Source: Candidatus Iainarchaeum sp. (GTDB taxonomy: Archaea > Iainarchaeota > Iainarchaeia > Iainarchaeales > JAFCCW01). From it: a DNA stretch of 36,262 bases. Position numbers and translations under genes: made by a program. The stretch is taken from NCBI GenBank assembly GCA_017609985.1, contig JAFCCW010000017.1, positions 1-36,262 on the forward strand. Reading direction: 5' to 3'. Under the pieces are notes generated by a model. The model saw nothing but the letters and a program-made list of their open reading frames with translations, made no database searches and was not told where the DNA came from. This document shows positions 25,113 through 28,355 of the stretch, piece by piece (positions within the stretch are counted from its first letter, which is position 1; each line of letters starts with the position of its first letter).

Positions 25113-25259
25113 TTAAATCCAGTCATCGCCTAAAGAAAAAGTACCATAAACTGGTCTTTTCGGTTTTCTTTTTTTAGATTTTTTCTTAGCTGGCTTTTTT
25201 TAACCACTTTTTTCTTTCTTACTGTTTTTTTTAAAACTTCATAATTGGTGAATCCGAAA
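25113..25259 (-). pseudogene. out-of-frame basic tail of the HNH gene
   Basis: Directly after the HNH stop, a second minus frame reads TDNFGFTNYEVLKKTVRKKK and stays open to the A7 run at about 25196-25202. A third frame then gives KPAKKKSKKRKPKRPVYGTF and SLGDDWI, ending at TAA 25113. Both switches fall in poly-A runs (A9 at 25267-25275, then A7). Correcting one base in each would fuse this lysine-rich tail to the HNH domain as one protein of about 135 residues. Lys-rich low-complexity sequence can look coding by chance, but the ending PVYGTFSLGDDWI does not look random. Confidence 0.45.
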
Positions 25260-25526
25260 TTATCTGTTTTTTTTTACTCTGACTTTTCTTTTTGTTTGAT
25301 GAATTTTATCATGACAGTTTGGGCAAACAATGATTATGTTGCTTGGTTTGTTGTCGTTAGGGTTAAGGTTTTTGTGATGCGAATGACCTCTAACACCCAG
25401 TTGTTTAAAAGAACGCTTGCATTTTGCACATTTGCCTTGTTGTGCTTTTAGAATAAGTTGTCTTGGTCCTTTGCTAACAGATTTCCTTTTTTTATTCTCT
25501 TTTCGTTTCAAACTAAGTTTTATCAT
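25260..25526 (-). CDS. HNH endonuclease-like protein
   Basis: 88 residues with a compact HNH fold. CAKCKR (first zinc pair) is followed by GVRGHSHHKNLNPNDNKPSN with the catalytic His in the beta-beta-alpha motif, then VCPNCHDKIHQ with the second CxxC and final His. Flanks are rich in Lys and Arg for DNA contact. The family includes intron-homing, restriction and repair nucleases that nick or cut DNA using one metal ion. It overlaps the upstream zincin gene by 14 nt, so both are probably made together. A longer original protein is likely; see the tail entry. Confidence 0.8.
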   Translation of the reverse strand: MIKLSLKRKENKKRKSVSKGPRQLILKAQQGKCAKCKRSFKQLGVRGHSHHKNLNPNDNKPSNIIIVCPNCHDKIHQTKRKVRVKKNR

Positions 25527-27228
25527 TCATAAGAACGAATTGAAATTTTTCAATTTCAAAAAATTTACAGTTTGGAATTCCAATTTTTGTTTCGTGACAT
25601 ATTCCTAACCTGAATTTGTTTGAATTGTATTTTGATTCTGTTTCATTGCTTTCAAGCAAGGTTGTGTTTTGTAGAGTTATGACTTTTGTTGATTCACACA
25701 ACCCCACACTACCACAGGTTAAGTTAGCTATCTTTTTTCCGTTAGTAGTTCCAAGGTAAATTGGTGTATTTTCTAAAAGATCAAATTTTAGTTTGATTAT
25801 TGCTCTTGCGGGTTGTTCTGGAAAAATATCTATAACTTTTGCGTCAATATCTGCAACTACAGGTTGAAATAAAAATGCAATCACGATTGCACTCAAGATA
25901 ACAATTATTGTGATTAGTTTAAGAGCTGAAACTGACCTATGAATGATTTTAGGCGGTTCTGGTGCGGTTCCATCACTTATTAGAATAGGCGTTGTGGTTT
26001 TTGGAGGTGTAACAATTTTTTCATAGTTTATTTTTTTTCTGCCTTTAAGAGCATCAAGAATCTCAAGAAATTTATCATCTTCATCTACTTTATTTGCCCA
26101 ATAGATTGACGCATAGGGGATGCACGGGTGTCCTGATGTTCTCCATAATTCCATAGCTTCTTGCTGTTCTATTCCTGAACCCCTATATGGAGGCATTGAA
26201 GGTGGTTTTGGAAACACGTGTATGTTGCAAAATTTTTCTTTACAATAAGGACATTTTTCAAGTCCTTTTGCTTCAGCACACAAATGATAAGAACAAGAGT
26301 TTTGCGAAATTTTTTTATTTTTTAAAGTATCGTATTCTTTCTTTTTTATGAGTTCATTATACTCTTTTTCAGATTTTTCTCTTTCTTTGTTAAATGACTT
26401 TTTGCCATAATTTTCTTGGTTTACTTCTGATTTAAATTCTTCAACTTTTGATTCAATTTTTTCAATTTTTCTTTTCAAATAATCTTTTCTATGCGCCTGT
26501 TTCACTTCTAAGATTTTTTGTTTAAGCGGAATTATCAACTCTTTTTCTAATTCTTCCTTATACTCCCAGTTTTTAAGTTCATTAAATTCTTTTAATGAAA
26601 ATTCATAAAGTTCAAAAATTTTTTTGATTGCTTTACGCATCGCTTCTTTATTGTCTAATTCACTTTTAACATTAGGAAATGCCCAGATAGAATCCCATAT
26701 CGGTGTTTCAAATGTGTTAATGAAATAATTATTCCCTCCAAACAAGGTTCTGTACTTATCCAAGAAAGGATGAAACACTTTTCTGAACTCAAGTTCAGTA
26801 TTGGTTGTTGGAACTTCAGGATTTGGCTCATTTAAAACTTCTGTTGGTATCTCCCAAGTAAATGGGTGTTTTTTCTTATAGTGCCAGACAGTTTCTTTAA
26901 TTTTGGATAAAGTATTTTCAAACTTGGCTCCGTGATTTTTAACAAATAAATGAGTTAGTTCATGTAGTGCAGTATCTTCAAGTTCATCAAGATTAAGTCC
27001 TTTAAGGATTTGGCGAGAAAAGCATATTTGCCCATATTTTACATTCAAATGGATATGAGCAAGATCTTCATTGGAACTGCCTGGACAAAACCCATCCCAA
27101 AATATTAGCTTGGGTTTATTGACTTTGGTCACTTTTGCTCCTATTTCAATCAATTTCTTAACCCAGTGTTCTTTACACAAAAGAAGGTAATCTTGAAATT
27201 CATCGGAATTCATACCAACTTTATTCAT
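25513..27228 (-). CDS. SprT-like zincin, coiled coil, AN1-like zinc finger, membrane anchor
   Basis: 571 residues with an unusual domain order. An N-terminal SprT/WLM-like metalloprotease domain (about 10-130) has HELTH (89-93) and a third His at 99 within NHGAKFE. A long charged, coiled-coil region follows (about 195-305). Next is an AN1-like zinc finger with C312, C317, C326, C329, C334, H337 and a distant HPC (367-369), so about 29 residues replace the usual 5 in the last spacing. One transmembrane helix (about 436-458) leads to an extracytoplasmic C-terminal domain of about 110 residues with four cysteines (505, 511, 544, 554). Topology places protease and zinc finger in the cytoplasm. 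GAGTGAT upstream is a good ribosome-binding site. Function is unknown. Confidence 0.7.
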   Translation of the reverse strand: MNKVGMNSDEFQDYLLLCKEHWVKKLIEIGAKVTKVNKPKLIFWDGFCPGSSNEDLAHIHLNVKYGQICFSRQILKGLNLDELEDTALHELTHLFVKNHGAKFENTLSKIKETVWHYKKKHPFTWEIPTEVLNEPNPEVPTTNTELEFRKVFHPFLDKYRTLFGGNNYFINTFETPIWDSIWAFPNVKSELDNKEAMRKAIKKIFELYEFSLKEFNELKNWEYKEELEKELIIPLKQKILEVKQAHRKDYLKRKIEKIESKVEEFKSEVNQENYGKKSFNKEREKSEKEYNELIKKKEYDTLKNKKISQNSCSYHLCAEAKGLEKCPYCKEKFCNIHVFPKPPSMPPYRGSGIEQQEAMELWRTSGHPCIPYASIYWANKVDEDDKFLEILDALKGRKKINYEKIVTPPKTTTPILISDGTAPEPPKIIHRSVSALKLITIIVILSAIVIAFLFQPVVADIDAKVIDIFPEQPARAIIKLKFDLLENTPIYLGTTNGKKIANLTCGSVGLCESTKVITLQNTTLLESNETESKYNSNKFRLGICHETKIGIPNCKFFEIEKFQFVLMNDKT

Positions 27229-27263
27229 TGTTTATCACTCAATTATTTTTGAAATAATTCAAA

Positions 27264-27440
27264 TCAATCTTTCTCCACAACTAACTTTCCTTTGTCCAAT
27301 CGCCAGCGTAGTGACTGACCTTCAATATCGTTTCTGAGCCCGATTACATTCTCTGCAATTTCTTTCGGAATCTGAACACGATAGTAAAGTTTGCCCTGCG
27401 TTCTTCTGAGTTCAACCTTCGAATATTTTTCCAAAGCCAT
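27264..27440 (-). CDS. AbrB-like small DNA-binding protein
   Basis: 58 residues: MALEKYSKVELRRTQGKLYY, then RVQIPKEIAENVIGL, and an end LRWRLDKGKLVVEKD. The pattern of basic strand, R-x-x-IPKEIA, short helix and two strands ending in KGKLVV matches the swapped-hairpin AbrB/SpoVT fold found in antitoxins and archaeal regulators. It lies 35 nt upstream of the zincin gene on the same strand and is probably first in a three-gene unit (AbrB-like, zincin, HNH), where it could regulate the unit or act as antitoxin. That role is inference. It is too short for a length-limited gene call, but the frame is clean. Confidence 0.7.
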   Translation of the reverse strand: MALEKYSKVELRRTQGKLYYRVQIPKEIAENVIGLRNDIEGQSLRWRLDKGKLVVEKD

Positions 27441-27570: not shown

Positions 27571-28355
27571 ATGCATCTGTTGAGTTACTGGAAAATTATA
27601 AGGCCAAGTAATGGGGCAATGGCAGCCTTAGCTGTAGCAATCGGATTCTTTTTTTAATATCTGGAGCAGGAATTGTTCTGAATGACTTTTTTGATGTGGA
27701 AATGGACAAGTTAAACGAGCCAGAAAGACCTATTCCATCAGGCAAAATTTCCCCAAACCAAGCTCTTGTGTTTTCCTCACTTCTCTTTATTGCAGGGCTT
27801 GCTCTCTCTTACTATGTAAATATTTACTGTTTTGCTCTTGCACTCATTAACACATTTCTTGAAATAGGCTATGCTGCAAGACTGAAGCAGATTGCTTTGG
27901 TTGGAAATCTCACAGACAGCTGGTTTGTAGCAAGCTCTTTTTTGTACGGTGCACTGATAACAGCGAGCAGTGCCCATTTAATGGTTAAAACCTCGCCAGC
28001 TCTTCTTGTTCCACTGATTGCAATAACTGCTTTCACAGCAAATGCTTCAAGGGAAATTTTTGGAGACATTCAAGACCTTGAAGGTGACAAAAAAGCTGGA
28101 GCAAAAACTCTGCCAGTAATTGCCGGAGTACAAGTTTCAAAAAAAGCAGCAGTCTTTCTTCTGACAATAGCAATCCTTCTGGGATTTGTTCCGTTCCAGC
28201 TCGGCTTTTTTGGAATTGAATATCTTGCAGTAGTCATAATAGCAGACCTGTTGTTTGCTTACTCTATTAATCTTGAACTGGAAAAAAACCAGAAGATGAT
28301 GCGAACAGCAATGGCTGTCGCAATCCTTGCATTTGCAGTGGGCGTGATTTTTTGA
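27571..28355 (+). pseudogene. UbiA prenyltransferase, DGGGP synthase-like, broken N-terminus
   Basis: ATG 27571 opens a frame MHLLSYWKIIRPSNGAMAAL, AVAIGFFF, then TAA at 27655. The next frame continues the same protein as LISGAGIVLNDFFDVEMDKL, NEPERPIPSGK. The first Asp motif (NDFFDVEMD) and second (DIQDLEGDKKAG) are intact, followed by the rest of the helices to 28355. One T missing from the T7 run at 27649-27655 accounts for the frame change. Even when repaired, helix 1 to helix 2 lacks about 20 residues compared with the archaeal family that adds the second geranylgeranyl chain to glycerol phosphate. If translated from GTG 27696, the product would lack the first Asp motif. Confidence 0.7.

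Follow-up and report, generated by a model that had tools for sequence, protein, structure and literature searches.

An unnamed archaeal zincin-AN1 protease family with predicted membrane-anchored members

The window, i.e. the whole stretch of 36,262 nucleotides that we analysed, belongs to an archaeal genome of the Diapherotrites (Iainarchaeota) comprising 1.16 Mb in 37 contigs. The ORF listing shows three ORFs in tandem, all on the minus strand, that code for an AbrB-like protein of 58 amino acids (27264-27440), which is the first of the run, a protein of 571 amino acids with a zincin domain (25513-27228) and an HNH nuclease of 88 amino acids (25260-25526). The gap between the first two genes is 35 nt, and the zincin gene overlaps the HNH ORF by 14 nt. 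As a TATA-like element, TATTTAAA, is located upstream of the AbrB-like gene and an SD-like GAGTGAT precedes the ATG of the 571-residue protein, the run may be a single transcript; a sigma-70 promoter and terminator scan, whose model is not meaningful for archaea, stayed at chance level. The trio is flanked by thiM on one side and ubiA on the other, and the surrounding genes include thi genes (thiamine synthesis), a helix-turn-helix regulator and a FEN1-like gene, with thi and FEN1 being named from the sequence by eye and ubiA by Pfam. The original prediction described three AT-rich genes in a row on one strand, which agrees with the tandem order and with the GC content of the zincin (31.8%) and HNH (32.6%) genes, but not with the 41% GC of the AbrB-like gene, a value resembling that of the surrounding genes. 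The intergenic stretch that separates the AbrB-like and zincin genes contains, shortly before the zincin start, an inverted repeat, AATTATTTTTGAAATAATT (27241-27259), which is a possible operator or a chance occurrence in AT-rich DNA.

The HNH ORF contains the motif CxxC...HH...N...CxxCH, and its product matches HNH families in PHROGs (1.2e-8) and the YajD type (9.9e-7), while PF01844 reaches 19.0 bits against a cut-off of 21.4. The reading frame closes at 25260, resumes via another frame and then returns to the first one, ending at a stop at 25113, the position at which the predicted cassette had been taken to begin. Both frame changes are located in poly-A runs, so that the HNH product is interrupted as sequenced. 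The overlap and the HNH assignment of the nuclease gene hold. The ubiA prenyltransferase gene (27571-28355) likewise changes frame near 27650, within a T run, and sequencing errors at homopolymers in this single assembly are the simplest and probable cause of both breaks.

The structural model assigns the N-terminus of the 571-residue protein (residues 1-130; 26839-27228, minus strand) to the SprT/WLM/minigluzincin type of metallopeptidases, with the putative metal site H89-E90-x-x-H93...H99, in which HELTH corresponds to residues 89-93. SprT-like and WLM Pfam models score 19.8-23.0 bits, below both curated cut-offs (25.6/26), placing the domain outside those curated families. We modelled residues 1-300 with AlphaFold, including two Diapherotrites relatives in the alignment, and obtained a zincin-type fold with fair to good confidence over residues 11-120, where the pLDDT per block of 10 residues is 73-90. 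The 12 best PDB matches of this model in Foldseek were all HExxH metallopeptidases (selecase/jannalysin, Wss1, HtpX, SPRTN), with a Foldseek probability of 1.00 for 4jix, 5xbv and 5xbn and a TMt of 0.63 at best, the E-values being weak (0.0096 at best). Searching the PDB with a profile of six relatives gave a match to Wss1 at an E-value of 2.2e-5. Together with the presence of this region in 17 relatives (see below), these matches bear out the predicted SprT-type zincin around HELTH.

Alignment of all 18 proteins revealed twelve invariant positions, K19, P39, F43, H58, H60, I68, C69, T86, H89, E90, H99 and F103. H93 is conserved in 17 of them, and the third His ligand, H99, is part of an H-x-x-F motif. 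An AHxH...IC signature stands before HExxH, is likewise invariant, and appears to be specific to the family. One relative (G431) has HEVTR in place of HExxH; this protein is truncated, ending near a contig edge. The conserved ligands suggest proteolytic activity.

The zincin domain is followed by a helical region (residues 143-300; 26329-26802, minus strand), identified by alignment and predicted secondary structure, for which similarity was recognised solely with one Diapherotrites relative (L002). Residues 143-299 were modelled as a set of helices, and the coiled coil that had been proposed for the middle of the protein is not clearly present as a single element. Residues 312-369 (26122-26295, minus strand) contain the ligands of a C6H2 finger of the AN1 type (C312, C317, C326, C329, C334, H337, H367 and C369), and F333 precedes the fifth Cys, C334, a Phe in this position being an AN1 hallmark (PMC5035049). 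The zf-AN1 Pfam match is weak (E-value 0.1 for the protein and 0.0047 in the genome scan; 13.1 bits against a cut-off of 27.9), and the loop before the final HxC comprises 29 residues as compared to about 5 in usual AN1 fingers. Residues 436-454 (25867-25923, minus strand) form a single membrane helix according to hydropathy and flank charges, corresponding to helix 134-152 in a second model. Basic residues precede this helix and acidic residues follow it, suggesting a topology with the N-terminus in the cytoplasm and the C-terminus outside. The predicted outer domain (residues 460-571; 25516-25851, minus strand) carries four cysteines (505/511/544/554) and three N-glycosylation sequons. Finger, anchor and Cys-containing outer domain thus correspond to what had been expected, and the domain anatomy of the protein is well supported, with its function being inferred; the model of the AN1/helix/outer-domain part has a pLDDT of 40 and no confident fold.

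Profiles were needed to find relatives because a single-sequence search with the whole protein gave no match in GTDB contigs or viral contigs. The profile search identified 17 relatives: Diapherotrites contribute two, the phylum of genome G213 (245 genomes searched) contributes 14, and the remaining one comes from a third, small phylum. BLAST clustering places all 18 proteins together in a single cluster, and in the members scanned all Pfam matches of the zincin stay under the curated cut-offs. The three sequences from Diapherotrites group together with good support (97/91), making old inheritance with many losses likelier than recent spread. Weak matches of about 290-310 residues in the profile scans (E-values 1e-2 to 1e-6) were excluded as probable HtpX-type M48 peptidases on the basis of their length and of HtpX being among the fold matches. 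The only viral candidate, encoded on one GC-rich viral contig, has HExxH in a generic setting but not the AHxH signature, so that the profile scans provide no viral link for the family.

The order zincin then long-loop AN1 was found in nine of the 18 proteins (window, G413, G513, G549, G427, G462, G097, G213, G282), all nine having a loop of 19-38 residues, and membrane helices are predicted for six of these nine (window, G413, G513, G549, G097, G282). One protein, G026, has the reversed order with AN1 ahead of the zincin, two (G533, G405) end in another zinc-ribbon-like segment, and in five (G571, G419, G439, G531, G016) no finger was recognised. The parts behind the core vary from the four-Cys domain of the window protein to an NTF2-like domain with a weak DUF4878 match (G097) and to little or nothing (G282), indicating that zincin-AN1 is the recurrent core. 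Thus, the zincin-AN1-helix order, for which a search had been suggested, recurs in other archaeal phyla. We conclude that the 571-residue protein belongs to a genuine, unnamed archaeal zincin-AN1 protease family, in which known kinds of domain, a SprT/WLM-like zincin and AN1, are combined, and that this family is not a new system.

In a scan of 193 archaeal genomes AN1 fingers were also present at the head of rhomboid and M50 proteases, two of each class being checked with Pfam. Two adjacent AN1-membrane genes in another genome (G178, L057:669-2800) code for AN1 joined to M50 and for AN1 joined to five hydrophobic helices, which look rhomboid-like by eye. AN1 occurs as well on proteins without a protease, namely on proteins with one membrane helix and on CAP and transglutaminase surface proteins, showing that the finger need not mean proteolysis. 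Diapherotrites have such AN1-membrane helix-outer domain proteins lacking a zincin. It therefore looks as if AN1 is a module shared among membrane proteins of archaea, of which several are proteases, and the independent fusions to rhomboid and M50 proteases point to a module of archaeal membrane proteolysis.

Like Wss1 (WLM) and SPRTN (SprT), the family combines a small gluzincin-type HExxH...H-x-x-F domain with a reader segment, which is a zinc finger or SIM; in those two enzymes the zincin is accompanied by a ubiquitin- or SUMO-reading segment (PMC7782752; PMC4559962). It differs from them in having AN1 instead of UBZ/SIM, in being often membrane-bound and in carrying the AHxH...ICxS signature, and a DNA-binding domain was not recognised. 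The minigluzincins of Methanocaldococcus (selecase/jannalysin MJ1213), the top Foldseek match, are archaeal zincins of about 110 residues too, but selecase consists of a single domain with 110 residues, whereas in the 571-residue protein the zincin is fused to AN1, a helix and an outer domain. The archaeal AN1-rhomboid and AN1-M50 proteases found in this analysis share the fusion of AN1 with a membrane protease; in those the intramembrane protease follows AN1, in contrast to the soluble-type zincin that precedes a finger with a 19-38 residue loop in the family described here.

Whether the 571-residue member of this undescribed family acts as a cytoplasmic metalloprotease tethered to the membrane, with AN1 recruiting substrates or a partner and the outer domain anchoring or sensing, is in our view evenly balanced. 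The recurrence of the zincin-AN1 order in nine members from three phyla, six of them with membrane helices, supports this reading, and the five members without a recognised finger and the 12 of 18 without a predicted membrane helix count against it. Partners of eukaryotic AN1 proteins include the proteasome or a Cdc48-like ATPase. By analogy, the finger would act as a recruiter that binds substrates or such a degradation partner, and recruited proteins would be brought to the zincin on the inner membrane face, where it would clear damaged proteins or carry out regulated cleavage. Recruitment is suggested by the repeated AN1-protease fusions and by Cuz1, a yeast AN1 protein that binds the proteasome in a zinc-dependent manner (PMC5035049). 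A further relative also speaks for recruitment by AN1, as its zincin (G439) lacks the finger but lies beside a divergently oriented gene for a double-AN1 protein (L152:1498-2034, the two genes together spanning L152:1498-3230), as if the finger acts in trans. The invariant C69, possibly with H58 and H60, may hold the enzyme latent, a role proposed from its conservation and by analogy with Wss1, whose latency is conferred by a cysteine switch (PMC4559962).

More tentatively, AN1 could commonly serve membrane-linked proteolysis in archaea as a recruiting module that was joined independently to rhomboids, to site-2 (M50) proteases and, in its long-loop form, to a new zincin family, the zincin-AN1 proteins being membrane-bound archaeal analogues of SPRTN/Wss1 that follow the same plan of gluzincin and reader, with an invariant AHxH-Cys latch. 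We consider this broad proposal possible rather than probable. How substrates are recruited to membrane proteases in archaea, above all in DPANN, is poorly known, and the repeated fusion of AN1, which is related to eukaryotic proteasome/Cdc48 adaptors, to unrelated protease types offers a direct handle on this process. Moreover, a family of 18 members, none of which falls into a curated zincin family where scanned, widens the range of SPRTN/Wss1-like enzymes.

Alternatively, the AN1-membrane-outer part might be the functional core of a surface-architecture protein, with the zincin trimming a partner or the protein itself. Three Diapherotrites surface proteins (L004, L005, L006) have AN1 and a membrane helix in common with the window protein, and L004 and L006 also share the four-Cys outer domain, behind which they bear CAP or transglutaminase domains. 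In these proteins, however, an external CAP or transglutaminase enzyme is present and the zincin is missing, whereas the window protein shows the reverse, and the zincin-AN1 order is kept with wholly different outer parts or none, so this explanation is unlikely.

It is quite doubtful, too, that the protein is a DNA-protein crosslink protease, i.e. an archaeal counterpart of SPRTN/Wss1 located at the membrane. The best matches by structure and profile include Wss1 and SPRTN, whose ubiquitin or SUMO readers are comparable to the AN1 finger (PMC7782752). Yet the fold is matched equally by selecase and HtpX, neither of which is a crosslink protease, no DNA-binding domain was recognised in the 571-residue protein, six of the 18 members have a membrane anchor, and the family is distributed sporadically although genome-repair genes are usually kept.

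The evidence on the two neighbouring genes argues against a conserved association with the protease. HNH or AbrB-like relatives were found near none of the 17 other zincins when all frames were scanned up to 5 kb on each side; several flanks end at contig edges, so that a few may have been missed, but for seven relatives the sequence extends about 4.5 kb or more to either side. The trio is thus a local arrangement and no conserved cassette, contrary to what had been proposed, and homologues without these two neighbours are the outcome that had been named in advance as refuting it. In 80 genomes of the phylum, only two relatives of the HNH protein were found, both weak. Relatives of the AbrB-like protein, with 40-51% identity, occur in three genomes, which confirms a conserved small protein as predicted, but its assignment as a MazE/AbrB-type regulator is weak (PF04014, SpoVT-AbrB, E-value 0.039, below the cut-off).

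Very little probability attaches to a regulatory pair in which the AbrB-like protein represses the protease operon. The inverted repeat between the two genes would fit this, as would the AbrB-like gene of G026 (L079:377-583), which overlaps the start of a gene for a trypsin-like peptidase (L079:580-1359). The repeat may be fortuitous in AT-rich DNA, however, the other two AbrB-like relatives adjoin a methyltransferase gene and a gene of no assigned function, and no AbrB-like gene was found within 5 kb of any other zincin, the one in G026 being located on the same contig at a distance of 12 kb from the zincin.

That the three genes form a dedicated defence or element-control unit, as originally suggested, with the membrane protease as a sensor of invasion that would release or activate the HNH nuclease and AbrB as the regulator, is hardly credible, since the common strand, the close spacing, the low GC content shared by zincin and HNH and the occurrence of HNH domains in several defence effectors are opposed by the lack of conserved partners, the interrupted HNH ORF, the absence of matches in PADLOC (three zincin proteins tested) and PHROGs for the zincin, PADLOC matches of the HNH protein that cover nothing but the generic HNH domain in effectors such as ZorE, and flanking repeats that are AT-rich chance matches only rather than marks of a mobile element. 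The defence reading has support from nothing beyond adjacency, and a toxin-antitoxin unit was rejected as partner conservation is absent. The HNH and AbrB-like genes are unrelated neighbours, possibly on the zincin transcript, and with both being there by chance the 571-residue protein probably serves as a protease in housekeeping or regulation and not in defence.

Other neighbourhoods of family members showed further features. The contig around the AN1-zincin gene of G026 (L079:580-17455) is rich in genes for proteases and surface enzymes and codes for trypsin-like and rhomboid proteases, two transglutaminases and a CAP protein, as well as for Fic and a tyrosine recombinase. Two genomes of the G213 phylum have, adjacent to the zincin, a gene for a conserved protein of 126-129 residues without a Pfam match (L150:6528-6908, L153:1240-1629). 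Finally, in the small archaeal genome G531 a Cas9d gene (NCBIfam E-value 2e-147) and an 18-repeat CRISPR array lie just downstream of the zincin relative (L155:6381-10729), a setting that we take to be reminiscent of ARMAN/Micrarchaeota.
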